The notes beneath the pieces were generated by a model. It saw only the letters and a list, made by a program, of their open reading frames with translations, was not told the origin of the DNA and did not search any database. DNA of 64,000 nt from Primulina eburnea. Lineage: Eukaryota > Streptophyta > Magnoliopsida > Lamiales > Gesneriaceae. The stretch's first letter is position 1, and each line of letters opens with the position of its first letter. Positions 8,501 to 62,440 of this stretch are shown in pieces. Made by a program: the position numbers and the translations under genes. Location: contig NC_133104.1 of assembly GCF_022965805.1 (NCBI RefSeq), positions 36,500,682 through 36,564,681 of the forward strand. Reading direction: 5' to 3'.

Positions 8501-9291
8501 CACAAGATACAGAAAACGCCTATTCGTTTGAAGGGGAATAAATTTCTCATCTTACAATTTTGTCAAAGAGCTCCCCTCCACTGACAAATTCCATTACCAT
8601 AAATATCTTGGCCTTGCTCGCCATCACCTGATAATGATATATCATAAGAATTGCAGGTAACACAACCAAAAAGAGCAGGGAGAAAGAAGACGACCTCCAA
8701 CTTTACAACATAAGAATTGGTCCAAGAAGCAAAAGAAAGTGGTGCTTTGTGAAAGTTTTAGAATGTCTGTACTACAATTTGACAAAGGCCTAAAGATTCG
8801 TGTAGAGACAAACCTCGTACAATTGAACAACATTGGGATGCTTTACCAATTTCATTGTGGTAATCTCTCGCTTAATCTGTCAAATTTATACACAAGATAT
8901 GTTAGAGCCAGAATAGAAGTTTTATTATACCAAATTCGAGGGAAAAAAAAGGTCCATAACTAGTAAGATGAATTGAATACCACACAGACAAGCTCCTACC
9001 ATCAAGGTGGCCACCACACATGTAGTTCCAAATTACATAAATAACTCGTCCATTGGATATCATTGAATTCGATACAAAGGCTTTGAGGCATATCGAAAAA
9101 TGAAAAAGAAAGTTAACCTGCTCAGATAGTTTGTGCTTGAGAACCTTATCCTTGTCAAAAATCTTGATCGCCACAGGCTGTCCATTCTCAGTATTCCTAG
9201 CGAATTTAACTTTTGCAAATGTTCCCTCACCGATAGTTCTTCCAATCTCATACTTTCCAATTATTATCCGCCTCACTTTGGATTGATTCAT
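5532..9291 (-). CDS. CIPK: CBL-interacting protein kinase (CIPK3/CIPK26-like), 14 exons
   Basis: SnRK3-type serine/threonine kinase, activated by calcineurin-B-like calcium sensors in stress and ion-transport signalling. Exons (minus): 9118-9291, 8814-8876, 8556-8627, 8288-8395, 8140-8220, 7266-7319, 7062-7187, 6874-6963, 6646-6768, 6457-6567, 6193-6306, 6028-6084, 5827-5901, 5532-5606. All are multiples of three with GT-AG borders and give 440 aa, the usual family length. Visible: glycine loop GEGTFAKV (21-28), K43 in VAIK, HRDLKPEN with D137, DFG 155-157, activation loop ending APE184, NAF motif within [12 protein letters not shown] (NAF 313-315) for CBL binding, and the phosphatase-interaction region [15 protein letters not shown] is followed by MNQSKVRR. 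No defect is seen. The multi-intron layout and wording fit the CIPK3/9/23/26 clade, nearest to CIPK3 or CIPK26; the exact orthologue needs a tree. Confidence 0.95.
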
Positions 9292-10540
9292 TCGCTTATG
9301 ATTATAGAGTATGTTCTCCTCTTAACTCGCACCCTCCACTTTTAAATAGAAAATTTCCTGCACTGACTGATCATAAGTGTACGCAGTCAAACATTTTACT
9401 AACTTTAAAACCCAGTAAGATTTCTGCAATTTATAGCGAATATCAAATCGAACACGACAAATGGATTCAATACAACTGAAAGAAAAAAAAAATTGCAAAG
9501 GCCAGGAATTTATGATGTACATCTACGAATAAAAGAGCAGAATCACCAATTGTATGAGTCGAGACAATGATAAGTACCATTTCTTTAAAAGAAGTTACAG
9601 ATTAAAATATACTAAATCGATGGCATTCCTAGATTATGCAAATGATGACTAAAAAACAGAACAAATCAGTCAATAATAGAATAAAAAAACCCCAGAAAAT
9701 CATCAATCATGCCAACAAACTGTGAAGAAGATATTTAATTATCACTAATTCCAACACTAAATCTCAAACCACAAGCTAAACCAAAAAGGAAAACCAATTA
9801 TAACTTAAACAACACTGAATCAAAATCAGCTAAAAATCTCTCAACTTTCCCACCAAATTCCAACCAACCTTAAAGAAACCTTTTTTATTTACTATTTTGA
9901 ACTCGCCCAAGATTCCCAAGATCCAGCAAAAAGCTTTGAAGAACCTTGAAGTCAAAAGAAAATCTCACAACAGTCTCAACTTTCTGCACACAAATACTAT
10001 ACAAGAATTGAAATGATGAGCGACGAAGAGGATAAGCTTGAAGTTTTCGAAATGGACCTTTACAGATTGCTCCACCTGAAGTACAAAGCGGCTCAATACT
10101 TCAAAATAAAAGATTTCTAACCAAAAAAGAATAAAAAGAAGCTAGTACGTAAATGGCTAATAAACACTAGGTGACAGAAACCACAGAAAACACGCATCAG
10201 AATAAAGAATCCAAGATTCACCCCACCAGAAATTTGAAAAAAAAAATAACGATAGATTAAGATTAGATAACAATATATTGAAGTTCCAAAATAACTGCTA
10301 TAATGATAATAATTGTGATAAGGTAACGTTCGTACAGTTCGAACAGAGGAGCTAACCTTGTCACTGTTCTTTTTCTTGGTAGTGATCGCATGGAAATCGT
10401 GTGTAATTGGTGCAAGGGACCGCCATTATCTTATTTTTTTAAAAAAAACTTAACAACTTAAAAACATACTTTTTTATATTTTTAAACCCAAGTACCCAAC
10501 CAATCAATTTTTGACTTACCTATATTATAATAAATTTGAG
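9292..10540 (-). promoter_or_regulatory. Upstream region / probable 5' UTR of the CIPK gene
   Basis: No ORF of note. On the minus strand a possible UTR donor (GACAAG|GTTAGC near 10360) and an acceptor (GTGCAG|GAAATT near 9355) would allow a 1-kb leader intron before the start codon. This is only a reading of splice-like strings; the core promoter is not identifiable with confidence. Confidence 0.35.
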
Positions 10541-10726
10541 AGTAAATCTCTTGTGAGACGGTCGCACGAATTTTTATCTGTGATATGAATCAACCATAGC
10601 GATATTCACAATAAAAAGTAATACTTTTAGCATAAAAAGTATATTTATTTTTTCATGGATCACCTAAATAAAAGATCTGTCTCATAAAATACGACCCGTG
10701 AGACCGTCTTACACAAGTTTTTGCAT
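10541..10726 (+). mobile_element. MITE-like dispersed repeat, copy 1 (GTGAGACGGTC family)
   Basis: About 186 bp, with ends that are inverted forms of one another (TTGTGAGACGGTC... and ...GACCGTCTTACACAAG). The middle is conserved (ATATTCACAATAAAAAGTAA, CATGGATCACC). The same unit recurs at 15255-15435 in inverted orientation, at 49495-49650, and in decayed form at 42640-42765. Confidence 0.8.
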
Positions 10727-11399
10727 AAATTTTAATGATTATTTTTGCTTCCGAGATTTACTCAGCAAGTTCTCAGAAAATTGGGTTGTCGTATCAATAT
10801 GCAAAGAAAGGGCATGATATTCAATTCGTGATCAAACTATGAATTTTTATAGCATAAAAATTATGGTCAAGTTATATGATATTTATTAGTGAATGTTGTT
10901 GATCATATGATCCATGATATTCATGAGCTAATTGGCAATAAATTCAATGGAGTTTCTATCTTTCATGTATTAACCAATCATATTCATTCATCAACATGCT
11001 CATTTATCATATAACTTGTTTTCATATTTATATCATATCATTTACAAGATGCATTTTTATCAATATATAACAACGATAATTGTATTATGAATCATTAAAG
11101 AAATGCATAATACAAGTACATATATATTCAGAGAGCACGAATCCATTGAAAATCATGATGAAGTTATACTATGCTCATGAATTACATCAAAGAATAAGTC
11201 CAACTTACTCTCAAAGCTTAAGAACGCTTGTTGGAGTGGTTTTTGTTTATTCTAGGCTGTCAAAATTACACTAACATCAATTAATATCATCATTTTAATG
11301 TTAATCTTGAAAATTACCCCTACTCTATGATTTACATAACAATAAATTGAAGGAAAACTTGTAGCTCTAAGTTTCAAATTCCGTGTAAAACTCTAATAT

Positions 11400-12145
11400 G
11401 ACTTTTATCAGAGGTGAAGATGGATGTTCGGGTACAATTTGAGGAAGAAACGTGAGGAACCCAAGGTTCTCTTTATTTTTCGTGTATGGTAGTGAATAAT
11501 GATAGAAATATTGAAGCCCTCACGTTTTAAGTCAAAATTTCGCAGATAGAGAGTTGGGTCGGGTATATTTAGCCAGTAAAACGAGTTCTGCTGGGCTCTA
11601 TGGTGAGCCTTTTTAGCATCTGGGGCGCACCCTACTAGAACTAAACTTGATTTTCTTGCTTTAGTAGTGCCGGGCAATCCATTTTGGCCGTTGGGGCGTC
11701 CTTCCCTCGAATTTTCCAGCATTTTCTTCCTTTCAAGCTTTCTAAATCATCCTTATATCAATAGTTTTCATTTCTTTCCTATCACATTCATTGATCACTA
11801 TCTATACCTGCTCAAACATGTTCCCAACATTTTATTTCCACAACCACCAACATCCATCGTACAATTTCTCAATACTCATTGCTTTTATATCCATCAAATA
11901 TCACAATATGTTTACACATTTCAATGTCGATACTAATGCATCAATGTCATAGAAGTACTGTCAATTCATTTACATTGTTTGCACATACATATTTCATTTC
12001 ACAAAATGCATGCATGATACTAAATTACCATATATCATATCATATTGAACTTAAACCTATCGTATCGAATGTTTTAAACCCCAAATGGTAGCCATACCAA
12101 TGTAATTATCAATTAGATCATTTGTAGAGATAATCGGGCATTACA
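11400..12145 (-). repeat. LTR-like sequence, minus orientation
   Basis: Read on the minus strand, it begins TGTAATGCCCGATT at 12145. This resembles the starts of the solo LTRs at 23711 and 46040 (TATAATGCCCGAG, TGTAATGCCCGA). About 430-590 bases inside come GC-rich paired motifs (GACGCCCCAACGGCC, GGTGCGCCCCAGATG), as in those LTRs. The other end and a TSD could not be fixed; an end near 11079 is possible. Confidence 0.45.
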
Positions 12146-12429
12146 ACAATGCACATCGCTCAAACTTTCAAATAATCTTAAAAATCCCATAGCATTAGTT
12201 CAAGGGAATTTCAATTTTTCATTCTAGATTCCAGATATTTTTATCAGTTTTATTTCAGTTTCTAGCATTTTCATTAACTTTAATATATTTGATAGGGGTC
12301 ATATTTAATATTTTATTGCATTTTTTAAGTCTATGATTCCATAAGTTTGTATGTGTTGTGTCAACATTTCATTCATTTTGTCGTTAAATGTTGCATATGA
12401 TCATGGCTCACCTCGATTTATTGATTTGT

Positions 12430-12742
12430 AGGAAAAATGGCCGGAAAATATGAAAATCTAGGAGATTTGAAAAAGGTGGACAGTGCAAGGCGTGCTAGGG
12501 TTGTAATTCCAGACCGTCCCAGCGCGAGAAAGAAGAAATTTAAAAGCCGAGGCGATGAAAATTGCGCTACCGTGGTAATTCTGGACCTCCTCAGTGTGCC
12601 TGAAGGATTTTCAAGAGCACGAATAGAAAATGTCGCGCTAGGGCGGTAATTCTTAACTGCCCCAATGCGACTCAACATGGAAGCTTTTTTGTGGATGATT
12701 TCTTTATTTCTTTGGGTGGATTTTTAGACGCTAATAGGATAC
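12430..12742 (+). repeat. Part of an Athila/Tat-like LTR with GC-rich hairpin array
   Basis: Three units pair a GCGCTAGGGCGGT-like arm with an ACCGTCCCAGCGCG-like arm across about 8 bases (about 12490-12530, 12563-12600, 12632-12670). The sequence is interrupted at 12743 by the CACTA element and seems to continue at 16494. There it leads to a primer-binding-site-like string at 17416, so this block is probably the front part of an old LTR. Confidence 0.5.
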
Positions 12743-13892
12743 CTTCACTACAAAAAAATACTCTTACAGAAGCGGTTTTTTTCAATTTTAAGATCGGTTT
12801 TTAACCGCTCCAGCACTTGTACCACCGGTTGCAAAATCGCTCCTCTTATTGATGACCTTATATCTTATAGAAGCGGTTTTTTAAACCGATGGTACAAGTT
12901 TAAGAACCGCTTCTATTGTTTATTTTAGGTGCGGTTTGATAATGCTCGTACCCATCACGCATATTTACAACAGTTTCGAACCGTTTTTGTAGTTGTGTAT
13001 TTAGGAACTGTTTCAAAGTGTTCTAAAAGGCGTGAAGTGTAAGAACGGTCTTACACCTCTCCTACATGCCATGGATATAAGAGCGATTTCCAACCGCTAT
13101 TGATGTTGCCAATTAAAGAGCGATTTGAAACCAATTGTACATATTGTGAATATTACAACGGTTTTGGACTGCTCCCGTAGCTGTGCATTTAGGAGCCTCT
13201 TCAAAGCGTTAAAAAAGAGTGAGGTGTAAGAACGGTCATTCATCGTTCCTACGCGCCATCAATATAAGAGTGCTTTGCAACCACTATTGATGGTAGCAAC
13301 TGAAGAGCGGTTTGACACCGATCATACACGTCGCGCATATCACAATTTTAAGAGCGGTTGCAAATCACTCCTATATGACATCGATATAGGAGCAAGAAAT
13401 ATAGGACCGGTCTCAAACCGCTTTGGACACAGCTGGCAATAAGAATGGTTTTCCTCAGTTCCTATACGTTGTCAATATGAGAGTAGTTTTCAACCATTTC
13501 TAAATATATGAATTTAGGAGCAGTTGTAAACCACTTTTGAAAAAATACTGGATATAAGAACTTTTTGGAACCGTTCCTCAAGCCAATAACATTAGAACGA
13601 TTTCCAATCACTCTAGAAATTAATAATTTTGAAAACACTTCCAAACCAATCATGTGGATAAATTTGGGATTAATTTCTACTTTGTTGTCCAATCTGGATT
13701 CACAGATTCTAATCAAGATAATAAAGAACGCATGAAAGAAACAAGACCCAAGATCGTTCATAACCAAATACTCTTCAGATTCTTACATTAAAAACTAGAG
13801 GTTTTTAAGCTAAAAAATGCAGACATCACACCCACTAAGAACAAAGATCGTAAGCCTGAACCAAACCGGAAACCAGACTGCAAAGACTAATT

Positions 13893-50089: not shown

Positions 50090-50144
50090 GCCGACATCCA
50101 CTCGCCTTCAAAGTTGGTAGAGACACTCCAACCTAAAGGCTGAC
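50090..50144 (+). repeat. 50-bp minisatellite, left part (split by the Tat element)
   Basis: Unit 1 starts GCCGACATCCACTCGCC and contains CAAAGTTGGTAGAGACAC. Unit 2 starts GCTGAC and is cut by the retrotransposon, resuming at 62349 (ATCCAAAACCGTCGAAG TTGG). Unit 3 is 62392-62440. A more diverged unit may precede at 50060-50089. Confidence 0.8.
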
Positions 50145-50818
50145 TGATGCGATCCAGGCGAAATAGATGAGCAGGGTCGGGTGCTCCACCGGATCGAATC
50201 AAGTATTTGTAGTGTTGTTTAGGAAAATGAACAAGGTATATGGCTTCAATCTTGACCTGCAAACAAGAAGATGAACTCGTGAATGGGCGCCGGAGGGGTG
50301 TCCGACGTGACCACTCCGATGATTAAATCAGCAGGCAAAGAAGAAATTAAGCAATATATATGCGAATATATGTGAACAATACTTTTTAGTTCAAAGAGTC
50401 TCTCTTTTAAATGAATTTAATACCTGCTATTTATAGGGGAGGAATGAGTAGTTTCCTCGATTTCCGTGACATCTACTAAGTCGGTTTACCTTCCTAGCTT
50501 CTGATGACTTCTCGGACACTCCAAGCCCAAGTTGCTCTGGCAGATTAGATGGCATGTAATGATTATACTCAAGTGTGGCTCACTTGTCGAGGTAACGCTA
50601 TTTTCGAGGTTGCCAAAGTGGATATGCAACTGGGAAACACTACCCGGTCAGGGGAGAAGCACCCGACCAACTCTATGAGAGCCCGGGTAAATAATAAAGA
50701 ATTGCGTACAACACCAATCCATCCGGGAAGAGGAGTTATACCATCCGGGAAGAGGAGTTATACCCGGATACTCCTGAAATCGACCCTGACTATGACCCGG
50801 ATCCTACTAGGGGTATCA
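50145..50818 (-). repeat. 3' LTR of the Tat element
   Basis: Plus-strand text starts TGATGCGATCCAGGCG and ends AGGGGTATCA. It is identical in length (674 bp) and, as far as I compared, in sequence to 61670-62343. It contains a 23-bp internal duplication (CATCCGGGAAGAGGAGTTAT twice, near 50728 and 50746). A TATA-like CTATAAATAGC lies on the minus strand at about 50431-50441. Confidence 0.97.
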
Positions 50819-50832
50819 CCACCCATCCCTAA
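50819..50832 (-). other. Polypurine tract of the Tat element
   Basis: On the minus strand TAGGGATGGGTGG directly precedes the 3' LTR. It is the expected primer for plus-strand DNA synthesis. Confidence 0.8.
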
Positions 50833-51160
50833 AATAGTCGGGCTAGAGCTTGACTCGCTGTCCCGATTTGATCCTTTCTGCACTCTTTGCAATTGTGAAC
50901 AAATATTTAAACAAGGGAACTTTTGGAGTGTCTCGTATCCCATATCCTTGACTCCCCGATGTCTGATAATCACTATTCTCGAGAGAATCGATCGAATACA
51001 TTAATGAGGATGCTACTGAAAATTGCTCGTTTTTCAAGGTAATGATGAGTCTATACTCTCAATAACTGCACACGTCTCTTCACTTGGACGCACGATTTCC
51101 TAAGCGTCCTACGATCGTCCGATTAAATTTGAATCGAAGGTAGAGATGAACGCTCTACCC

Positions 51161-51170
51161 TATAAATAGA
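51161..51170 (+). promoter_or_regulatory. TATA box of antisense unit A
   Basis: CCTATAAATAGAGACC lies 42 bases upstream of the ATG at 51203. The preceding 45 bases (GTCCGATTAAATTTGAATCG, GGTAGAGAT) are related to those before the TATA box of unit C. Confidence 0.7.
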
Positions 51171-51202
51171 GACCTTGCTTATCCTTCCATCTTATCAATG
51201 CA

Positions 51203-51616
51203 ATGGCAAGCTCAAGCAATTCGAAAGCTCCTGATATGGCGGGGGAATTTATGCGTGCGGTCACAGAGAGACGGAAGACTGATTTGGAAGACGAAGTTTT
51301 CCACAAAATACTCCTATTTTGGGAAAGATTGTACGAGCTGGAATCTTCTCAGTACGCAGAAGGGGCTCCTGCTCCTGAGAACGTGGCTCGTATGCAGAAG
51401 TACCGTGAACGTCTTTGTGTTGCGGAGTATGTGGACATATTTACTCACCATGGTGTCTACGCACTAATGCTAGAAAAGGAGTTGAAGATCCTGGAAGACA
51501 TAGCCGGGTCAGATAGCTTTGGCAAGACCGCTACCGGAGATCTTAGCGGTTGGCTGCACAAATGGAGGGTTGCTGTAGAGGATGAACATCTCCGTGTAAT
51601 TCGTGCTCATTTTTAA
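51203..51616 (+). CDS. Antisense small ORF A of the Tat element, 137 aa
   Basis: Plus-strand frame, opposite to gag-pol, between the 3' LTR and the integrase. Residues 1-12 are Ser/Ala-rich. The rest looks like a compact helical protein (FHKILLFWERLYELE, KYRERLCVAEYVDIFTHHG, LMLEKELKILEDIAG, LSGWLHKWRVAVEDEHLRVI). It aligns over its last two thirds with ORF B at 52135-52566: KYRERLCVAEYVDIF with KYIREFAVARITDLV, and LSGWLHKWRVAVEDEHLRVI with LTNWITEWRDSVSVVMDDII. I do not recognise the family. Tat elements are known to carry extra ORFs, often antisense, but I cannot match this one. It has its own TATA box and ATG, so it is probably transcribed separately. Function unknown. Confidence 0.7.
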   Translation: MASSSNSKAPDMAGEFMRAVTERRKTDLEDEVFHKILLFWERLYELESSQYAEGAPAPENVARMQKYRERLCVAEYVDIFTHHGVYALMLEKELKILEDIAGSDSFGKTATGDLSGWLHKWRVAVEDEHLRVIRAHF

Positions 51617-52090
51617 TAATGAAATGTCCTTTTGTTTTCGTTCTAGCACTTATCTGGTAAATAGCGAAACCCACTTAAACGAAATTAAATAATGAAAATT
51701 GACATGACTAATAATCCCTAGATAATAATGCTTAGGCCAATGAGGTCTCGGTCTACCAGTTTGTTATGTTGAGATCTCGAGATTGTAGTCCGAGAGAAGG
51801 AATAAACAGGGACCAAGAATCCCCCGGTCTGCTGACGTGGTGCCATAATAATATGAGATTTATTGAACTCCTGCCAAACAAAAACGTTCCGTATTTCGAG
51901 GCACCTCAGACTTGACGTTTTGATAGCTGTTCAGATCCTTTCGTCTGCTCCGCGCAATTTACGAGGGACATCCTGATCATACACCTGTCCAAATCTGATG
52001 GCTATGATCAACTCTTGCCTTTGAATAATAAAGGAGACGCTTCGCATGGCTGAGACTCTTGGATTTCCCCCACATTTAAGGACGTTTGCC

Positions 52091-52100
52091 TATAAGTAAG
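52091..52100 (+). promoter_or_regulatory. TATA box of antisense unit B
   Basis: GCCTATAAGTAAGAGGG lies 44 bases upstream of the ATG at 52135, matching the geometry at unit A. Confidence 0.65.
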
Positions 52101-52134
52101 AGGGTGAACACAAAAAACAATTTCCCATTTTACC

Positions 52135-52566
52135 ATGTCGAGTTCAGGCGGTTCCAGTGCTTGCAGCAGCACACACGTCTTGGTGACCCCGGCAATGCGT
52201 CCTCATCTAGAGGAGCTGAAGAGAGGCATCGAGGAGAGCGTGTGGAGGAAAGTTATGACCGTACGAGATAAGGCCCACGATCTGGATTTTTCCTACCGCA
52301 ACAGTCTCGTTCTTACTCGAGCACAAAGAGCAAGAGCGAGGAAGTATATCCGAGAATTTGCAGTGGCTCGGATTACAGACCTGGTTAATGACCAGGTTCT
52401 ACTACACATGATGCTGCGGAAAGAATGGCATGCGCTAACCAAGATAATGCACAATGAAACCTTTGTCAATCTTCGAATCCACGAGCTGACTAACTGGATA
52501 ACAGAATGGCGAGATTCTGTGTCTGTTGTAATGGATGACATAATTGCTCGCCGCTTCTTTATGTAA
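52135..52566 (+). CDS. Antisense small ORF B of the Tat element, 143 aa, paralogue of ORF A
   Basis: Starts MSSSGGSSACSS, a Ser-rich head like that of ORF A (MASSSNSKAP). It continues with helical, charge-rich sequence (RPHLEELKRGIEESVWRKVM, LTRAQRARARKYIREFAVAR, LLHMMLRKEWHALTKIM, LTNWITEWRDSVSVVMDDI). Predicted layout, size and the aligned C-terminal WxxEWR/WxxKWR segment argue for duplication from a common ancestor with ORF A, now strongly diverged. Both frames have stayed open, which suggests selection. No domain is recognised. It lies on the strand opposite to gag-pol and has its own TATA box. Confidence 0.7.
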   Translation: MSSSGGSSACSSTHVLVTPAMRPHLEELKRGIEESVWRKVMTVRDKAHDLDFSYRNSLVLTRAQRARARKYIREFAVARITDLVNDQVLLHMMLRKEWHALTKIMHNETFVNLRIHELTNWITEWRDSVSVVMDDIIARRFFM

Positions 52567-52899
52567 TGAGAAATTTATTGCTTTTTATTGCTTTATTGCC
52601 TCTTTTCCAGAAAATCTATATAAATTTACGTGCGTCGCAACAATAGATGCTCAACCAATCGTAATAATTCGAATTATAAAACTGAAAACGTCTCCGCGAT
52701 ATACCTGTCTGGGAATCTATTCCGGGGTGCGATATCCTTCTTCCTGGACTAAAAACACAATCCCGGGTAATTAAATTTCCGGGCTATCGAACAAGTTGTC
52801 GGGGGCCTCGCCTTTTACTTCGCGCATTTTGCTTGTGTACTTCCCTCAAATTTACGTGTTTCCAAGTAAAAACCGGGATTTAAAATCTCCCCGGTTTAA

Positions 52900-53019
52900 C
52901 ATAACATATAACATATCGAGGCCTCAAACCTCCCGATTTATAAAATAACATGCCGGGGCCTTAAACCTCCCGGGCTCCCAAATAACATGCCGCGGCCTTA
53001 AACCCCCCGGGCTACCAAA
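52900..53019 (+). repeat. 37-bp tandem repeat, three units
   Basis: Units start TAACATATCGAGGCCTCAAA, TAACATGCCGGGGCCTTAAA and TAACATGCCGCGGCCTTAAA, each followed by CCTCCCG-type sequence. It lies between units B and C, upstream of the unit C promoter. Confidence 0.85.
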
Positions 53020-53208
53020 AACTGGGTAATTCAAAAGGTACCGTGATAGTACGTACCTTTCTTGCTTCAACGGTTATCAACGTTTCGAATTTCGAGGCGT
53101 TGATAAGTCTGACACCATAATGATTACGCGTGTCCTTACCGATTCCCAAGGATCATCTCGTCCATCCGATTAGATGCAAATCAAGGGTAGAGATCGAGTC
53201 CTTCTCCT

Positions 53209-53217
53209 TATAAGTAG
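53209..53217 (+). promoter_or_regulatory. TATA box of antisense unit C
   Basis: TATAAGTAG lies 153 bases upstream of the ATG at 53362, giving a longer 5' UTR than in units A and B. The 45 bases before it (TCCGATTAGATGCAAATCAA, GGTAGAGAT) match the unit A promoter. Confidence 0.65.
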
Positions 53218-53361
53218 TGCCTAAATTATTTTGAAAATATCACTTTCAAATTCGAATCTCCGGCGAAGCCCTGCTTAAATTGCTCCTCGAAGCTCTTCCG
53301 TGCAAAAAATCACCCACTTCCGAAGCTCCTCTTCAAAACCTGTAAGTTCTCTATTTTTATC

Positions 53362-55570
53362 ATGTCAAACTCTACTTCTTCAACGTCGGGAGCCAATGCG
53401 CGAGGCTCTCCTAGCGACGAATCTGCTGCGTTACGCTCCGATGCTTCTCAATCTCCCCCACCCCAACGCTCTGTCACCCAACCTGCTAAGAGACCAGTAG
53501 CCTCTTTAATTAAACCATCTTCTTCTAAACCCTCCATTCCTAATTCCTCCCGAATTCTCGCCCAAAGAAAAGGTAAGGGCAAAACTCGGGCCGTGAGCCC
53601 TCCTCCTGTCGAGGCCCCGGGATTTCCCTGGTTCTCCTCTCTGAGTAGCACCCTGCGCCCAGGGGCGGATGAAGAACTTAGGACCTTGGGTAGTATTCCT
53701 TCCAATCTTTCTATTTTAATACCCGAGTCCTCTGATAGGGCAAAAAACCCCCCTCAAGGGTACACTACTTTTTTCCGGGACCAAATTAAGAATGGTCTTA
53801 GATTTCCGATTCACCCCTTTTTCATTGCAGTTGCCAAATTTTTTGGCGTACCCATTAACCAATTTCACCCTAATTCTTTTAGGATAATGGCTGCCACTTA
53901 TGTCCTCTTTAACATGAATAATTTTCTTATTAACCCCCTCATTCTTCACTATTACTTTTCTTGCCGGTTTGGGGATAATGCCTTTTCCCTGACTGCCCGG
54001 CATAACGCTCGCTTCCTTGATGATATTCCCTCTTCTCAAAAAGGGTGGAAAGGAAGATACTTTTTTATTCGACTTCCGGGAGATCTTCCCTGCTTGTCTG
54101 GCTTTCTCTCTTCTCTGCCTACACAACCTTCGCTTCCCGGCACCTATAAATTTGAAGAACCCTTCATCGTGAGCCAGGATTTGGTGGAAGGGCGCAAATA
54201 CTCATCTTCCACATTAATTTCTGATGATAATTTGATCACATATGGGTTGAGTCCCCGGGGTGAGGATCCCGAAGATCGCATGATTGATGAGGTGGCGGGC
54301 TCGGGCCCTCAACCCGGTAATTCACCCTTCTTTCTTGCCACCCCCTCCCTTGTTCTTTCCTTAATTTACTCAACACTTACTTCTCCTCTGTCCAGATAAC
54401 TCCGAGATGCAAGCAGCTTTCGCTAAAAGACGAGCAGTCGAAAAGGCGGCCCGGGAAAAGGAACTCGCAACAAACCGGGCAATGGCCGAAGCAGAAAAAC
54501 AACGTGCTATGGAGGAAACGCCCCGGGGAATCGAAATTACTCGAGAGAATCCTTCCCGGGATGATACTCTTCGGGTAGTGGTTGAGACCTCAGAGGAGGC
54601 CGAAGATCTGGTTCCTCTTAGTAAAAGGCAAAGGATCTTGGCTGTCGAGCCCGAACTGATTATCTTGGATAATCCTCCTGCAGGTGATCAGGGTCCTTCT
54701 GGTTCCCACGAATCCCTTCCTCCTCCGCAGTTCAAGGAAGCCTCCAGCTCCGAATTTCCTTCGACTAACATTTTTTTCGAAGGGCCTACTTCTAGTGGCG
54801 CGAAACGCTTTAAGCAGATGCTCAGTCTTTCTGAGGCGGCCTTTCTAAAAAGTGTTCCGGCCTGCAATAGATTTCTGGAAGGATCGAATCGCCTCTATTC
54901 CGTAAGTTTTTCTCCTTATTACACTTATATTTTGACACATTCTTTATGACTTTTGCTCTTTGTTTTTGCTTAGGCTGCTCAAATGATAATGTCTGCTTTT
55001 GAGGAGGTGGCTGCAGTAGCCACCAAGACAAATAGGCAAGCCCGGGCGGCTCAAGAAATTCATGATCAACTTCGAGAAGATATTGCCCGGGCTACCAAGC
55101 TGCATGAGGAGAAAGTCACCGGTCTCCTGGCCTCCCTGGAAATGGCCAACCAGCATTTGGCTTCCGCTCAGCGTGCTCGGGATGAAAGTTTAATCCGAGA
55201 AGAGGCCTCTCAAAGGCAGATTGCTTTCTTGGAATCCCGGACCCGCTACCTTGAGGAAGAAGCTACTCGCCAACAACATCGAGTCGTGGCTGCTGAGGAT
55301 AAGCTTAAATCCTTACAGCTTACTCAAGAGGAATGGAAGACTATTTTCCTTCAATCCTCAGATTTCCAAGCGGCTGTTGAAGATAGATCATACAACTACT
55401 TCAAAGTCGGTTTTGAGAAATGCCGGGAACAGTTTGAAGAGGAAAACTTAATCCCGGCTAACAAAGAAGGCTTCCCGGATATTGACAAAGCCATTAACTC
55501 CCTTCCTAAAGATGGTGATGCTGACCAAGAGGCTGGGGAGTCCGGGGATCAAACTGCACCTTTAGAGTAG
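53362..55570 (+). CDS. Antisense spliced gene of the Tat element (Transposase_28-like), 3 exons, 685 aa
   Basis: Exons 53362-54316, 54396-54901 and 54974-55570 join in frame across GT-AG introns of 79 and 72 bp (CAACCCG|GTAATT...GTCCAG|ATAACT; TATTCC|GTAAGT...GCTTAG|GCTGCT). Exon 1: a Ser/Pro-rich head (1-80), then a region like the 'putative gypsy type transposon' family PF04195 (YTTFFRDQIKNGLRFPIHPF, FRIMAATYVLFNMNNFLI, GWKGRYFFIRLPGD). Exon 2: basic/acidic (QAAFAKRRAVEKAAREKELA, LVPLSKRQRILAV). Exon 3: a long coiled coil (HEEKVTGLLASLEMANQHLA, RYLEEEATRQQHRVVAAEDK) and an acidic tail. It runs opposite to gag-pol. Extra ORFs of this kind are known in Tat elements; their role is not established. 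The GC-rich arrays on either side are not part of it. Confidence 0.82.
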
Positions 55571-55716
55571 GATTGTTTACCTTCTCTCTTTTTTCTTTGT
55601 AATTTCCGGCCTTCGAGCCCTTTAATGAAGAACTTTCTTTTCTTCCTTGTGACTAAATGATATGTGAAATACATATGTATTCCCAGACCCGGTCCTCATG
55701 GTCATTTGGGCCTTTT

Positions 55717-56318
55717 AAGAGCCAAAGCGCGGAGCCTTGGGCCGGGGAGCACGTCCCGGGACTTGGAATGGTCGAGGTGTGTGGCCCCGAGCCAGGGTGT
55801 AGTGCCCTGGGCTTTTGAGAACCAAGGTGCGGAGCCTTGGGCCGGGGAGCATGTCCCGGGACTTGGAATGGTCGAGGTGTGTGGCCCCGAGCCAGGGTGT
55901 AGTGCCCTGGGCTTTTAAGAACCAAGGTGCGGAGCCTTGGGCCGGGGAGCATGTCCCGGGACTTGGAATGGTCGAGGTGTGTGGCCCCGAGCCAGGGTGT
56001 AGTGCCCTGGGCTTTTAAGAACCAAGGTGCGGAGCCTTGGGCCGGGGAGCATGTCCCGGGACTTGGAATGGTCGAGGTGTGTGGCCCCGAGCCAGGGTGT
56101 AGTGCCCTGGGCTTTTAAGAACCAAGGTGCGGAGCCTTGGGCCGGGGAGCATGTCCCGGGACTTGGAATGGTCGAGGTGTGTGGCCCCGAGCCAGGGTGT
56201 AGTGCCCTGGGCTTTTGAGAACCAAGGTGCGGAGCCTTGGGCCGGGGAGCATGTCCCGGGACTTGGAATGGTCGAGGTGTGTGGCCCCGAGCCAGGGTGT
56301 AGTGCCCTGGGCTTTTAA
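55717..56318. repeat. 100-bp tandem repeat, six near-identical copies
   Basis: Six head-to-tail units of 100 bp begin at about 55717, 55817, 55917, 56017, 56117 and 56217. Each contains GCGGAGCCTTGGGCCGGGGA, TCCCGGGACTTGGAATGGTC and GAGCCAGGGTGTAGTGCCCT. The first unit differs at a few positions; the others differ by one or two bases. The array lies between the 3' end of the antisense gene (plus) and the 3' end of integrase (minus). Frames that stay open through it exist because 100-bp units shift phase. Confidence 0.97.
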
Positions 56319-56410
56319 GATTAGTACTCGTCGAACTTAAGATGTAAGAAATAATAGAACACTTCTGAGAAAAATATATCTTCCATTATATCTTCAATCA
56401 ATACATCCAT

Positions 56411-57601
56411 TTAAGCATAATACTGTTTTAAATTAAATACATTCCAAGGTCTCTTGAGGGAACGCCCTTGTGCATCTTCTAAATAGAAAGATCCCGAACT
56501 GACTTTTCGAGTAATCTTGTAAGGTCCTTCCCACCTGGCTTCTAACTTTCCGACTTCCCCAGCAGGATTGACCTTTTTCATGACGAGATCTCCTATTTGG
56601 AAATTTCGGATCCGGACCCTTTTGTTATATGATTTCATAATCCGATTCTTATATGCTTCCATTCGGATGCATGCTCGATCTCTCTTTTCTTCTATCAGAT
56701 CCAATTCCATAGCCCTGGCCTGATCATTGCTGCTTGGGTAAGCTTCTACCCGAGAAGAAGTCATTCCGATCTCTACGGGAAGGACTGCCTCAGAACCATA
56801 CACTAAGCTGAAAGAAGTTTCTTGAGTAGGTGCCCGGGGAGTAGTCCGATAAGCCCAGAGAACACTAGGCAATTCTTCCACCCAATCTTTTCCTTTACCT
56901 TGTAATCTGGTCTTTAGTGCTTGCACAATGATTCTATTGACAACCTCTGTTTGACCGTTAGCTTGTGGATATGCAACAGAGGTAAAAGATTGAATAATCT
57001 TCATTTCCTGGCACCACAACATAATTTCTTTGCCCTGGAATTGTCTGCCATTGTCCGAGATTAGTCTTCTGGGCACCCCAAATCGGCATACAATATTCTT
57101 CCACAGAAATTTCAACACTTCCTGCTCGGTAATTCGGGCTAAGGGCTCGGCTTCAACCCACTTGGAAAAGTAATCCACTGCTACTAATAAAAATTTCTTC
57201 TGAGCCCGAGCAGTTGGGAAGGGACCCACAATATCCATACCCCATTGATCGAAAGGGCAAGATGCCCAGATGGGCTTCATGAGAGTGGCCGGGCTGTGCT
57301 TAAAATTTGCGTGATGTTGACAGCTCTGACAAGCTTGAACTATCTGGGTGGCATCTCGGTTAAGAGTTGGCCACCAAAACCCGGCAAGCATGGTTTTTCG
57401 AGCTAGAGACATTCCTCCAAGGTGCTCTGCGCAGCATCCTTCATGAATCTCCCGGAGTACATAATCTACCTCCTCTTCAGGTAAGCATTTTAAGAGAGGC
57501 CCCTGGAATGATCTTTTATACAAGATTGAGTTTAAGAAAACAAACCTGGAAGCCTGTCTCTTAATCTTCTGGGCTTGACCTCTGTCCTCGGGTAGTGCAC
57601 C
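56411..57601 (-). CDS. Tat element integrase
   Basis: The integrase inserts the cDNA into chromosomal DNA. The open frame can be followed upstream to about 57601 (ALPEDRGQAQKIKRQASRF, VFLNSILYKRSFQGPLL), with no ATG at its start, so it was the C-terminal part of a gag-pol polyprotein. An HHCC zinc finger (EIHEGCCAEHLGG ... CQSCQHH) precedes the DDE core: WGMDIVGPF with Asp, LISDNGRQF with Asp, NGQTEVVNR with Glu. A typical C-terminal domain follows (NFQIGDLVMKKVNP, GKLEARWEGPYKI). The preceding frame ends with VHYPRTEVKPRRLRD, which is the same DNA read one base off. Restoring continuity would need one base in the A-run at about 57602-57605. Whether the frameshift is real, an assembly error or bypassed by ribosomal frameshifting is open. 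Confidence 0.93.
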   Translation of the reverse strand, partial: GALPEDRGQAQKIKRQASRFVFLNSILYKRSFQGPLLKCLPEEEVDYVLREIHEGCCAEHLGGMSLARKTMLAGFWWPTLNRDATQIVQACQSCQHHANFKHSPATLMKPIWASCPFDQWGMDIVGPFPTARAQKKFLLVAVDYFSKWVEAEPLARITEQEVLKFLWKNIVCRFGVPRRLISDNGRQFQGKEIMLWCQEMKIIQSFTSVAYPQANGQTEVVNRIIVQALKTRLQGKGKDWVEELPSVLWAYRTTPRAPTQETSFSLVYGSEAVLPVEIGMTSSRVEAYPSSNDQARAMELDLIEEKRDRACIRMEAYKNRIMKSYNKRVRIRNFQIGDLVMKKVNPAGEVGKLEARWEGPYKITRKVSSGSFYLEDAQGRSLKRPWNVFNLKQYYA

Positions 57602-60600
57602 TTTTCAATAAATCTGATTAAGGGCGTCATCCAAGAGTTTTCTGGATCGGGGGCTCTTCCTTCGTCGGTCGAGAGGATCAAACGGGAGACGTGCAACACT
57701 TCTCGGGTACTTACTTCACTTAGGGAGGCAGCCATTTTTGCCAGAATATCCGCCTCGCTGTTCTCCTCTCGGGGTATCTGTTCGATACTCCAATCCGAAA
57801 AGCCCTCCGCTCGTGTTTTGATAAGCTGTAAATATTTCAGCATCCTGTCATCTTTGGCTTCGTAGACACCCCTTATCTGCTGAGTGACAAGCTGTGAATC
57901 AGAATATATAATTATTCGGGAAGCCCCGACTTCCCGAGCAGCTCGAATTCCAGCTAGCACAGCCTCGTACTCGGCCTCATTATTAGTTACTCGGGAATCA
58001 ATCCTTATTGCCAATTTGATTTTTTCTCCCGGGGGAGATATCATCACGACTCCTACTCCGCACCCTGCCAGGCTAGACGCCCCATCTACAAAAACTCTCC
58101 ACACTTCCTCTTCACTGGGCTGGATCATCTCAGACAAGAAGTCTGACAAAGCTTGTGCCTTGATAGCCACTCGTGGTTTATATTCGATATCGTACTCCCC
58201 CAATTCCACAGTCCACTTAATCATTCGCCCAGATACCTCAGCATGAGTCATGATTTTACCAAGAGGGCTGTTGGTAAGAACCACTATTTGATGTGATAAG
58301 AAGTACGGTCTTAGCTTCCGGGAAGTTACGATTAAAGCCAATGCAATCTTCTCTACCTCTGTATACCGGAGTTCGGGCCCTCTTAGAGCGTGGCTGACGT
58401 AATAAATAGGCTTCTGATCAGAGCCTTCCTCTTTGATCAACACTGAACTGACAGCATGCTCTGTAGAGGATAAATATAGGAATAATTTTTCCCCGGGCTC
58501 GGGCTTTACTAATACCGGGAGCTCTGCAAGATGGGCTTTCAAGTCCTGGAAGGCTTGTTCACATTTATCGTTCCACCCGAATTGCTGGGCCTTTCTCAAG
58601 ATTTGAAAGAAAGGATAACTTCGGTGTGCTGATCGGGATATAAATCGAGAAAGGGAAGCAATCCTTCCTGTCAGTTTTTGTACTTCTTTTACAGATTGGG
58701 GGGAAGGCATACATAAGACAGACTTCACCTTCTCTGGATTTACCTCAATTCCCCGATCTGTGACCATGAATCCCAAGAATTTGCCACTCTTTACGCCAAA
58801 AATACATTTGGCCGGGTTAAGCTTGATCCCATATTGCATGAGGGTGGCAAAAGTTTCCTCCAGATCATCAATAAAAGTAGTGACCTCCCGGGTCTTGCTT
58901 AAGATATCATCCACATAGACCTCTACGTTCCGCCCCAGCTGCTTCTCGAATACTTTATCCATAAGACGCTGATAGGTGGCCCCTGCATTTTTCAACCCGA
59001 AAGGCATTACAACATAACAAAATGTACCTCCCGAGGTGACGAAACTGGCCTTATCTTGATCTTTTTTGGCCAGGGGAATTTGATGATACCCCTGGTACGC
59101 ATCCATAAAGCTCAGCAGCTCATAACCAGAAGTGGAATCTACCAGCTGGTCAATCCGGGGCAGTGGATAATGATCTTTGGGGCATGCTTTGTTTAGATCA
59201 CGAAAATCTACGCACATGCGCCATTTGCCAGTGGATTTAGGTACTAAAACCACATTGGAAAGCCACGTAGGGAATTGAATCTCCCGAATGTGCCCTGCCT
59301 TCAGGAGCTCCTTTATTTGTTCGGATATGACCCTGTCCTTTTCAGGACCAAAATGCCTCTTTTTTTGCTTCACGGGGTGAGATCCCGGGATGATGTTCAA
59401 ATGATGCTCCGATATAAGGGGAGAAATCCCCGTAAGCTCCTGCTGGGACCAGGCAAATACGTGAATGTTAGTTTTTAAACACTTAATTAAACTTACCCGG
59501 GTGGTCATGCTGAGATCCCGAGCCACCCGGATTTGCTGTCCCGGCCCCACTTCCACCGCCTCCTGCTCTTCTTCTGCCACAAAGTGGATCTCCCCTTCCT
59601 CCACTATTCTTTCTCCTGTCCTAACTCTCTTCCCCTCCCTCTTAAATCTGCTCCGATCCGCCCGGACCGCTTCTACATAACACTTTCGAGAAGAGGGTTG
59701 ATCTCCCCGAACTTCTCCTACCCTTGCTCCCACAGGAAATTTTATTTTCTGGTGGTAGGTAGACGCTACAGCCCTTAACTCATTCATAGCCGGCCTCCCC
59801 AGGATAATGTTATATGATGACGGGGAGTTCACCACAGTGAAAGAAGTCATCACTGTTTTCTTTAGATCGTGAGAGCCCAGAGTCAGCGGCAAAATAATCT
59901 CCCCCTCTGGATAAACCATGTGTCCGGCGAAACCAAAAAGAGCAGTTTCCACTGTTTCCAGATGATAGCCCTGTAAGTCCATCTGCTCAAAAGCATCTTG
60001 GAAAATTACATTCACAGAACTGCCTGAATCTACGAAAACCCGCAGAATGTCATAATTCGCCACCCGGGCTTGGATCACCAAGGCATCGTTGTGGGGTAGA
60101 TTCACCCCTTTCAGGTCTTCCGGGCCGAAACTGATGACTGCCTCATTGCCCCTCATTCCTTCCACCTCCAAGCACTCTTTCCTACTTCTTGACTTCCTTG
60201 CCCGATTGGAGTCTCCGTCAGTAGAGCCTCCGGATATCATTTTAATTGTCCCTACAACGGGGGGTGACTTCTTTCTCTGCTCAGGTTCAGGCCCCCTTCT
60301 TCTTCCGGGCTCGGTTCTAGAGTTGTTTCTCACACCTCCTCTCTGAGAACTAGATCCGGGCTGTCGGGATGCCCACGGCGGCACCCTAGACATTTGAGTA
60401 TTGATAGTGGGTTTTGGGAAGGAAGGCGCAACATAATTTCCCTTTAGAACTTTGCAATCCTCAGTATTATGATAGCCTAATTTGTGAAGCGCACAAAATC
60501 CTGTCTTCTCTGGCCGAGCCAGTTGATGATCCGGAGCTAAATCCCTACTACACTCCTGCACCTCCCTCTCTCGGGCAATCTTCAGAGGCACATGATGAGA

Positions 60601-61626
60601 GAAATGCCCTGGATTGCCCCTCTTCTGTCCTCTCTCCTCGGGTTTGGATACCCGGTCTCCCCTTTCTTTCCTCACTGCTTCCCTCTTCTGTTTCTGGGCT
60701 TCCTCCATATTTATGTACTTCTCTGCCCGGGATAACAGATCCTCAAAATCCCCGGGCACTTTTTTGGTTAGCGATTTAAAGAATTCACCCTCTCTCAGAC
60801 CCTGGGTGAAGGCAGTAGTCTTGGTCTCGGTGGCACAAGATGGGACGTCTAGAGCCACTCTGTTGAACCTTTTGATGTAAGCCCGCAAACTCTCCTCGGG
60901 ACTCTGCTTCACCTCAAAAAGACTAAAAGCAGTCTTTTTGTACTTCTTGCTGCTACTGAAATGGTGTAAAAACACCCTCTGGAAATCCTGAAAGGAGTTA
61001 ATACTCTGGGATGCCAGGCCTTCGAACCACCTCTGAGCTGAATCCACCAACGTCGTTAGGAATACTTTACACTTAATTCGGTCAGTGTAGCAATGCAACA
61101 TGGCCGTATTTTCAAATCTGGCCAAGTGTTCCTCTGGGTCAGCGTTGCCATCATAATCTTTTACTTTGGCGGACTTGAAATTCCCGGGAAGAGGTTCCCG
61201 GACTATGATGTCTGCAAACGGACATCCTCTCAAGATTGTTCGGGCAACGCTTCGTTCTTCCAACTGTCCTTCGAGGACCTTCATCTTCTGCCGTAAATTT
61301 GACAATTCCTCTGCCATGGTAGGAGATTTGGATCCGGCGCTAGACTCCTCATCTTCCCCTGTTACTTCCTTTTCCCTCCTCTCCTGTTCTTGCTCCTCTT
61401 CATGTCCTTGTTTATCACCCTGTTTATCACCGGGTGGTGTAACAGGTCGAGAGACCTCCTTTCCAGCTGCATATAATGCGACGGCATCAGCCATCATTCT
61501 TTTTAACTCCTCAGGGGTCAGGGTAATGTTTGGCCCAGTATTATTGACATTGGCTTGTCTCGAAGTCTGTCCCCCATCCCCCTGGGCATGAGGATCACCC
61601 TGATCGGTTCTTCTTGTACGAGCCAT
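57532..61626 (-). CDS. Tat element gag-protease-RT-RNase H polyprotein, 1364 aa
   Basis: ATG start 44 bases inside the 5' LTR border. Order: basic/acidic head; gag capsid region (HLARFENTAMLHCYTDRIKC, AQRWFEGLASQSINSFQDF, about 165-320); a CX4H..HX4C-like finger CALHKLGYHNTEDC (about 379) in place of a standard CCHC knuckle; aspartic protease FVDSGSSVNVIF (about 532); reverse transcriptase with WRMCVDFRDLNKACPKDHYP and YVDDILSK (about 904); first RNase H with the usual initial Asp replaced (LYLSSTEHAVSS, about 1052); second, archaeal-type RNase H VFVDGASSLAGCGVG, NNEAEYEAVLAG, YSDSQLV (about 1180-1290). A double RNase H is diagnostic of the Tat clade. There are no internal stops. The last 25 or so codons are out of frame with integrase because of one missing base near 57602. 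Confidence 0.96.
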   Translation of the reverse strand: MARTRRTDQGDPHAQGDGGQTSRQANVNNTGPNITLTPEELKRMMADAVALYAAGKEVSRPVTPPGDKQGDKQGHEEEQEQERREKEVTGEDEESSAGSKSPTMAEELSNLRQKMKVLEGQLEERSVARTILRGCPFADIIVREPLPGNFKSAKVKDYDGNADPEEHLARFENTAMLHCYTDRIKCKVFLTTLVDSAQRWFEGLASQSINSFQDFQRVFLHHFSSSKKYKKTAFSLFEVKQSPEESLRAYIKRFNRVALDVPSCATETKTTAFTQGLREGEFFKSLTKKVPGDFEDLLSRAEKYINMEEAQKQKREAVRKERGDRVSKPEERGQKRGNPGHFSHHVPLKIAREREVQECSRDLAPDHQLARPEKTGFCALHKLGYHNTEDCKVLKGNYVAPSFPKPTINTQMSRVPPWASRQPGSSSQRGGVRNNSRTEPGRRRGPEPEQRKKSPPVVGTIKMISGGSTDGDSNRARKSRSRKECLEVEGMRGNEAVISFGPEDLKGVNLPHNDALVIQARVANYDILRVFVDSGSSVNVIFQDAFEQMDLQGYHLETVETALFGFAGHMVYPEGEIILPLTLGSHDLKKTVMTSFTVVNSPSSYNIILGRPAMNELRAVASTYHQKIKFPVGARVGEVRGDQPSSRKCYVEAVRADRSRFKREGKRVRTGERIVEEGEIHFVAEEEQEAVEVGPGQQIRVARDLSMTTRVSLIKCLKTNIHVFAWSQQELTGISPLISEHHLNIIPGSHPVKQKKRHFGPEKDRVISEQIKELLKAGHIREIQFPTWLSNVVLVPKSTGKWRMCVDFRDLNKACPKDHYPLPRIDQLVDSTSGYELLSFMDAYQGYHQIPLAKKDQDKASFVTSGGTFCYVVMPFGLKNAGATYQRLMDKVFEKQLGRNVEVYVDDILSKTREVTTFIDDLEETFATLMQYGIKLNPAKCIFGVKSGKFLGFMVTDRGIEVNPEKVKSVLCMPSPQSVKEVQKLTGRIASLSRFISRSAHRSYPFFQILRKAQQFGWNDKCEQAFQDLKAHLAELPVLVKPEPGEKLFLYLSSTEHAVSSVLIKEEGSDQKPIYYVSHALRGPELRYTEVEKIALALIVTSRKLRPYFLSHQIVVLTNSPLGKIMTHAEVSGRMIKWTVELGEYDIEYKPRVAIKAQALSDFLSEMIQPSEEEVWRVFVDGASSLAGCGVGVVMISPPGEKIKLAIRIDSRVTNNEAEYEAVLAGIRAAREVGASRIIIYSDSQLVTQQIRGVYEAKDDRMLKYLQLIKTRAEGFSDWSIEQIPREENSEADILAKMAASLSEVSTREVLHVSRLILSTDEGRAPDPENSWMTPLIRFIEKVHYPRTEVKPRRLRDRLPGLFS

Positions 61627-61652
61627 ATCAACGTCTTGAATTCAGTATATTT

Positions 61653-61669
61653 CCCACAGACGGCGCCAA
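61653..61669 (-). other. Primer-binding site of the Tat element
   Basis: On the minus strand TTGGCGCCGTCTGTGGG directly follows the 5' LTR end. TGGCGCC... sites are typical for Tat/Athila elements. Confidence 0.9.
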
Positions 61670-62343
61670 TGATGCGATCCAGGCGAAATAGATGAGCAGG
61701 GTCGGGTGCTCCACCGGATCGAATCAAGTATTTGTAGTGTTGTTTAGGAAAATGAACAAGGTATATGGCTTCAATCTTGACCTGCAAACAAGAAGATGAA
61801 CTCGTGAATGGGCGCCGGAGGGGTGTCCGACGTGACCACTCCGATGATTAAATCAGCAGGCAAAGAAGAAATTAAGCAATATATATGCGAATATATGTGA
61901 ACAATACTTTTTAGTTCAAAGAGTCTCTCTTTTAAATGAATTTAATACCTGCTATTTATAGGGGAGGAATGAGTAGTTTCCTCGATTTCCGTGACATCTA
62001 CTAAGTCGGTTTACCTTCCTAGCTTCTGATGACTTCTCGGACACTCCAAGCCCAAGTTGCTCTGGCAGATTAGATGGCATGTAATGATTATACTCAAGTG
62101 TGGCTCACTTGTCGAGGTAACGCTATTTTCGAGGTTGCCAAAGTGGATATGCAACTGGGAAACACTACCCGGTCAGGGGAGAAGCACCCGACCAACTCTA
62201 TGAGAGCCCGGGTAAATAATAAAGAATTGCGTACAACACCAATCCATCCGGGAAGAGGAGTTATACCATCCGGGAAGAGGAGTTATACCCGGATACTCCT
62301 GAAATCGACCCTGACTATGACCCGGATCCTACTAGGGGTATCA
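61670..62343 (-). repeat. 5' LTR of the Tat element
   Basis: 674 bp, TG...CA ends, partner of 50145-50818 with no difference noticed. Adjacent to the primer-binding site and followed by the CTGAC duplication at 62344-62348. Confidence 0.97.
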
Positions 62344-62440
62344 CTGACATCCAAAACCGTCGAAGTTGGCTGAGAGACACCACGACGCGGAAGTCGGCAT
62401 CCAAATCTGTCAAAGTTGGCAAAGACACCTCGACTTGAAT
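62344..62440 (+). repeat. 50-bp minisatellite, right part
   Basis: The remainder of unit 2 and all of unit 3 (GTCGGCATCCAAATCTGTCA, AAAGTTGGCAAAGACAC). This is the other half of the array that begins at 50090. Confidence 0.8.

Follow-up and report, generated by a model that had tools for sequence, protein, structure and literature searches.

Reverse transcription of spliced RNA should remove introns from retroelements. How, then, can a plant LTR retrotransposon contain an intact gene that is interrupted by two introns, and is such a gene a mere passenger or a part of the element? The question is raised by a stretch of 64,000 nucleotides (the window; positions 36500682-36564681 of an 812-Mb assembly), and copies of the gene concerned were sought in that one plant genome. 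A preliminary description of the window had proposed that three plus-strand exons with GT-AG introns join to 685 codons within a young element, on the strand opposite to gag-pol, and had taken the resulting gene, here called gene C, for a passenger. The analysis described below makes it very likely that gene C is instead an accessory gene that forms a regular part of a Retand/Tat-type element, lies opposite gag-pol and has a TATA promoter of its own as well as two spliceosomal introns.

The host element is bounded by long terminal repeats that are identical over all 675 bp, start with TG and end with CA, and are flanked on either side by CTGAC; judged by this LTR identity the element is young. 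Gag-RT-RNase H and the integrase are encoded on the minus strand, and thereby the repeats, the duplication and the antisense orientation of gene C had all been read correctly. A profile search yielded two RNase H matches in the 1364-aa frame, i.e. RT_RNaseH at 1044-1145 and a separate RVT_3/RNase_H match at 1177-1299, and a dual RNase H is a feature of the Tat group (PMC9289625). An antisense ORF with a PF04195 domain lies between pol and the 3' LTR, and antisense ORFs at that position are characteristic of Retand elements (PMC7264820, PMC11963269). The sizes of the LTR (675 bp), the internal region (10,850 bp) and the stretch from POL to the 3' LTR (about 5,590 bp) all lie within the ranges given for Retand (315-1,194, 7,380-12,869 and 2,933-6,566 bp, respectively; PMC11963269). 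By its domain content (RT domain included), antisense PF04195 layout and sizes, the element is taken to be of the Retand/Tat type. The pol frame of the window copy is interrupted between RNase H and integrase (57523-57534), a break that had been overlooked before, and the same stretch is open in all three relatives examined (L048, L050, L055). All three antisense genes of the window copy (see table) are open despite the interrupted pol frame, and for moving this copy would probably need the help of other copies. The 100-bp units of the tandem array are near-identical, and a repeat-like stretch is present at a similar place in one of the distant loci discussed below (L060).

Table. Features of the element and of its antisense genes, in window coordinates.
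Feature	Positions	Strand	Details
Target-site duplication CTGAC, left	50140..50144		TSD comparison
Complete Retand/Tat-type Ty3/gypsy element	50145..62344	-	12,200 bp; LTR and TSD comparison, domain content
3' LTR	50145..50819	-	675 bp; same sequence as 5' LTR
PPT candidate	50820..50850	-	purine-rich run in the stretch adjoining the 3' LTR
TATA box (TATAAATA) of gene A	51161..51168	+	sequence
Antisense gene A	51203..51616	+	137 aa; distant paralogue of B
TATA box (TATAAGTA) of gene B	52091..52098	+	TATAA core kept in 12/13 copies listed
Antisense gene B	52135..52566	+	143 aa; helical bundle by model
TATA box (TATAAGTA) of gene C (PF04195)	53209..53216	+	TATAA core kept in 12/13 copies listed
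Gene C exon 1	53362..54316	+	Transposase_28 domain
Gene C intron 1	54317..54395	+	79 nt, phase 1
Gene C exon 2	54396..54901	+	charged linker; basic KR-rich stretch, NLS-like by reading of letters
Gene C intron 2	54902..54973	+	72 nt, phase 0
Gene C exon 3	54974..55570	+	coiled-coil-like part (by eye), conserved C-terminal motif, stop
Tandem repeat array	55709..56320		about six 100-bp units; between integrase and antisense gene C
Integrase frame	56411..57523	-	370 aa; frame differs from upstream pol part in window copy
Gag-protease-RT-RNase H frame	57532..61626	-	1364 aa; two RNase H-type regions
Primer binding site candidate	61651..61668	-	adjoins 5' LTR; starts TGGCGCC; read from sequence
5' LTR	61670..62344	-	675 bp
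Target-site duplication CTGAC, right	62345..62349		TSD comparison

Removal of the two introns of gene C, each of which has GT-AG borders, leaves three exons that form one continuous frame of 685 codons followed by a stop, and in a small scan of positions around these boundaries they formed the sole GT-AG combination, so that the structure first proposed proved exact to the base. A profile search of the spliced product, suggested earlier as a check, gave a match to PF04195 at 26.3 bits, which barely exceeds the Pfam cut-off of 26.2; the domain piece of the protein scores 28.3 bits against the same cut-off, and all 16 aligned domain pieces match the profile. A donor-like word, GTAAGT, is found at 53342-53347, ending 14 bases upstream of the ATG, and a leader intron or an alternative start of gene C is possible.

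When the genome was queried with exon 3, at least 40 matches were recovered (of 128 candidates, 40 were scored), 28 of them (the window included) at 98-100% and 12 at 80-86%. The antisense half was retrieved for the 39 other copies, i.e. 27 close and 12 diverged ones; one close copy (L024) gives no alignment upstream of exon 2 and was left out, which reduces the close set to 26. GT-AG is present at both introns in every one of these 26, of which 20 have an undamaged spliced frame, the remainder having altered last codons (L022) or a broken frame (L017, L019, L020, L029, L033). Among the 12 diverged copies, nine have GT-AG at intron 1 and nine at intron 2, those without it having decayed, suffered a deletion (L042) or failed to align; three (L042, L045, L046) have a joined frame that is whole, off-frame exon gaps occur in several, and most of these copies are decayed. 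Frequent stops in sister copies, which according to the earlier proposal would speak against the gene, are thus not what the close family shows, its copies being largely whole, although the older copies do decay. In L042, where the gene lies on the minus strand, a deletion takes intron 1 together with parts of exons 1 and 2; the joined frame that remains can be read through to its end (644 codons, stop counted), and genes A and B of this copy hold stops. Compared with all 26 close copies, the window has two private bases in 50820-55620, namely 54363 and 54971, one in each intron; under an even spread such a placement is estimated to arise about 1 in 2000 times, and it is perhaps due to chance.

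Selection on gene C was assessed by Nei-Gojobori counts between the window and ten diverged copies, i.e. all 12 except L041 and L043. The dN/dS ratio amounts to 0.123-0.180 in nine of the ten, values that are rough as the synonymous distances of these nine copies are 0.68-1.07, and that are the opposite of the neutral ratio named beforehand as a refutation. In L036, the decay control, the joined read contains 23 stops and the ratio is 0.75. Because most diverged copies decayed after inserting, the ratio of gene C should mainly reflect the period before insertion. Control frames and intergenic stretches were evaluated in three copies (L045, L040, L038): the shifted plus-strand frames of exons 1 and 3 gave ratios above 1, two of the minus frames 0.9-2.4, and the two intergenic stretches, in which the codon positions are flat, 0.39-1.12. 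The remaining minus frame, the third positions of which coincide with those of exons 1 and 3, gave 0.11-0.22, a low ratio that is expected because the third positions overlap, and this frame holds stops. The integrase, which was used as a yardstick, has ratios of 0.027-0.065 in eight copies (in one of these over 74 codons only, and with dS near or above 1); these are lower, and gene C is therefore constrained, but less so than the integrase. Together, the ratios indicate that gene C is under purifying selection.

A comparison of site classes with eight of the 12 diverged copies (L036, L041, L042 and L043 left out) gave differences of 0.11-0.14 at codon positions 1 and 2, of 0.28-0.39 at four-fold sites and of 0.27-0.46 in the intron interiors, which in terms of sequence is the pattern of a spliced coding gene. 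In L045 and L046, which have both introns and the whole frame, the gap runs in exons are 15 and 6, and those in introns include 4, 5 and 7. These data bear on the reading in which the three ORFs specify separate, unspliced antisense proteins (of 345, 180 and 195 aa). Each ORF has its own ATG, and the published annotation of Retand elements relied on ORF Finder (PMC11963269); nevertheless we consider separate proteins very improbable, since the introns evolve like four-fold sites and carry indels that are not in threes, the coding pattern matches the joined exons, and distant families show the same intron phases and the same position of intron 2 (see below). The same codon-position pattern, together with the low dN/dS ratios, implies that a protein is being selected, which leaves very little room for the view that the antisense region acts as a non-coding RNA in dsRNA or small-RNA control of the element, its coding capacity being incidental. 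Control by dsRNA through antisense transcripts has been raised for such elements (PMC7264820), and an added role of the RNA would be compatible with a selected protein. We therefore retain the reading of gene C as a selected, very probably spliced accessory gene. It combines GT-AG borders, a frame that continues across the exons and intron interiors that resemble silent sites, as found in genes with spliceosomal introns, and on this comparative evidence its intron structure is real.

The PF04195 domain is present at no fewer than 150 places in the genome (150 of 841 candidates were scored, all above the cut-off). Six distant loci (L056-L061), picked non-randomly for differing scores and frame lengths, were analysed, and all six contain a PF04195 ORF. 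An ORF with the third-exon part comes next in L056, L057, L058, L060 and L061, and L059 has a shorter third-exon ORF that is fused to the middle ORF. A search within set coordinate ranges recovered an intact spliced model in L056, L060 and L061; the other three loci (L057, L058, L059) yielded no such model. The best-scored models of the former three repeat the intron phases of the window, 1 for intron 1 and 0 for intron 2. Junction 2 occupies an alignment column common to all four, and junction 1 shares the column of the window in L060 and lies four columns off, beside a gap, in L056 and L061. The domain is 51% identical to that of the window in L060, 32% in L056, 29% in L061 and 28-33% in L057, L058 and L059. 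In L060 the end of an integrase on the opposite strand adjoins the gene, i.e. the layout recurs; such an integrase end was not seen in the other five distant stretches retrieved.

A true passenger would be a host gene that was recently captured in antisense orientation with its introns, and the introns and the TATA promoter of gene C indeed resemble those of a host gene. The domain, however, is matched throughout the genome, its identity among loci of this same genome goes down to 28-33%, it occurs in 97% of the Retand clusters, and none was found outside transposable elements by the author of the survey that reports this figure (PMC11963269). Recent capture is accordingly extremely improbable. 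As Retand elements regularly carry PF04195 ORFs in antisense (PMC11963269) and gene C is under purifying selection, the label of passenger has to be given up. In the preliminary description, then, the intact gene and its introns were well recognised, but its relation to the element was not, and two further antisense genes (A and B) escaped notice.

The genome was scanned for the unspliced end of exon 1 and for the spliced junction. A pattern for the end of exon 1 plus the first donor base has 118 genomic occurrences (72 forward, 46 reverse), and its reversed control has none. The spliced exon-1/exon-2 junction of the window family is absent from the genome when up to three mismatches are allowed, a pattern that fits only this family and its near kin and that would miss distant families. 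Among 100 boundary places listed, three end in A; loss of the intron was considered for these three and rejected, since all of them retain the intron with an altered donor. The 118 exon-1 ends against zero spliced junctions imply that the copies arise from the unspliced strand. That gene C has kept its introns is thus very probably due to copying through the RNA of the opposite strand, as had been proposed for this locus, and the counts fit this explanation.

Genes A and B are plus-strand ORFs located between gene C and the 3' LTR, and with 25% identity (E 5e-12) they are distant paralogues. In the close copies, gene A is open in 24 of 26 and gene B in 23 of 26. Where the alignment is good, dN/dS is 0.157-0.212 for gene A (L038, L040, L042, L047) and 0.146-0.204 for gene B (L037, L038, L039, L040, L042, L044, L047); in L036 the ratios are 1.30 and 0.96, respectively. 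No usable synonymous distance was obtained for gene A in L044, L045 and L046 or for gene B in L045 and L046, and gene A is unalignable in L037 and L039. The one copy of 13 that lacks the TATAA core upstream of B and of C is in both cases L036; the TATA stretch of gene A fails to align in some copies. The promoters of A and C are alike over about 155 bp, TATA box included (z 13.1, a value reached by none of 200 shuffles), and those of B and C show a weak likeness in the window (z 3.5) and a strong one in L037, L040, L042 and L047. A structure model of the gene B protein is a helical bundle (pLDDT 85.8). In L044 and L045 the gene A protein is only 39-43% identical, as against about 83-93% for exon 1 of gene C, for which an exchange between families is one possible cause.

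Under the explanation that we prefer, the sense RNA would be the template for replication, in which the introns stand as their reverse complement and would remain uncut, so that each new copy of the element would receive the introns of gene C unspliced. RNA polymerase II would transcribe the antisense strand from the internal promoter, after which the two introns would be removed, and the single product of 685 aa would consist of a low-complexity tail, Transposase_28, a charged linker that includes an NLS-like stretch, a coiled-coil-like part and a conserved C-terminus. We infer that gene C is transcribed and spliced in vivo and that its product is located in the nucleus. With regard to function, our guess, held with somewhat less than even confidence, is that the protein could be a nuclear regulator of the element, i.e. 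of its transcription, silencing or integration, working with the two small antisense proteins that would be made from partly similar promoters; an anti-silencing role in particular is a guess. A nuclear regulator is favoured because of the PF04195 domain, the basic stretch in exon 2, the coiled-coil-like part, the gene's own promoter and the reported nuclear location of the Grande protein (PMC7264820). The predicted fold of the PF04195 domain has no Foldseek match at E <= 0.001, and structure therefore gives no pointer to function. Some of the same features would also suit a spliced accessory gene with a structural role, for instance in the import of the pre-integration complex: nuclear import of this complex is discussed for these proteins in PMC7264820, and exon 2 has, by reading of its letters, an NLS-like stretch. 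A promoter that is separate from the LTR, however, favours independent timing, and we regard a structural role, as opposed to regulation or anti-silencing, as rather unlikely.

At a higher level, we lean slightly towards the view that writing genes in antisense is this lineage's device for owning spliceosomal introns, the opposite strand carrying a second programme that comprises three or more TATA-driven genes, among them one whose two introns predate the split of its families. If this is true, the PF04195 ORFs and the coiled-coil ORFs that are listed apart in Retand elements contribute, as exons, to a single nuclear protein made from a spliced transcript; judging from the one genome examined, the coiled-coil ORFs may be the 3' exons of the PF04195 gene. 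As far as sequence comparison goes, a plant LTR element would be able to keep spliceosomal introns in the long term when the gene is encoded opposite to the strand that serves for copying. ORF surveys that are blind to splicing would report a single PF04195 protein as two or three separate ORFs, and size limits would overlook small antisense genes, which alters how a common family of plant genes (PF04195) is to be read. Full-length proteins that can be tested have thereby become available for the question of what the antisense genes of Retand do, which is left open in PMC7264820 and PMC11963269.

Several known systems share part of these properties. The TRP28 (PF04195) ORFs of Retand elements (PMC11963269) have in common with gene C the antisense orientation, the position between pol and 3' LTR, the domain, a long internal region, tandem repeats and sizes. 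That survey took ORF Finder output of at least 600 bp, plus shorter ORFs with PF04195, and counted the Smc-like domains of antisense ORFs; it lists ORFs, whereas here one gene includes both the PF04195 and the coiled-coil ORFs as its exons, and genes A and B are shorter than its 600-bp limit. In the available text of the survey the word 'intron' has no occurrence and 'splic' appears in one reference title only, and 'intron' is likewise without occurrence in the available text of the review PMC7264820. The latter describes gene23 of maize Grande, an accessory gene that, like gene C, is antisense and driven by an internal promoter of its own, and whose protein is nuclear. Introns in plant LTR elements are known from Ogre and EVADE (PMC12786077), but there they serve subgenomic RNAs of the sense programme, whereas those of gene C are on the other strand. 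A homing endonuclease gene that has a spliceosomal intron and lies antisense in a group I intron (PMC9548176) also combines a mobile element with an intron-bearing antisense gene, although in a different class of element that is without a reverse-transcribed genomic RNA. Another spliced antisense gene of a retroelement is HBZ of HTLV-1 (PMC1459196), the intron of which presumably survives for the same strand reason; its transcripts begin in the 3' LTR, whereas the promoter of gene C is internal, between pol and the LTR. The proposed second programme of Retand would closely resemble the antisense regulatory gene of HTLV-1, except for its internal location and its several genes. Antisense PF04195 ORFs and a spliced antisense retroelement gene, that of HTLV-1, are therefore already known, and what the comparison of the sequences adds are the introns, the single protein that is formed from several ORFs and two more small antisense genes.
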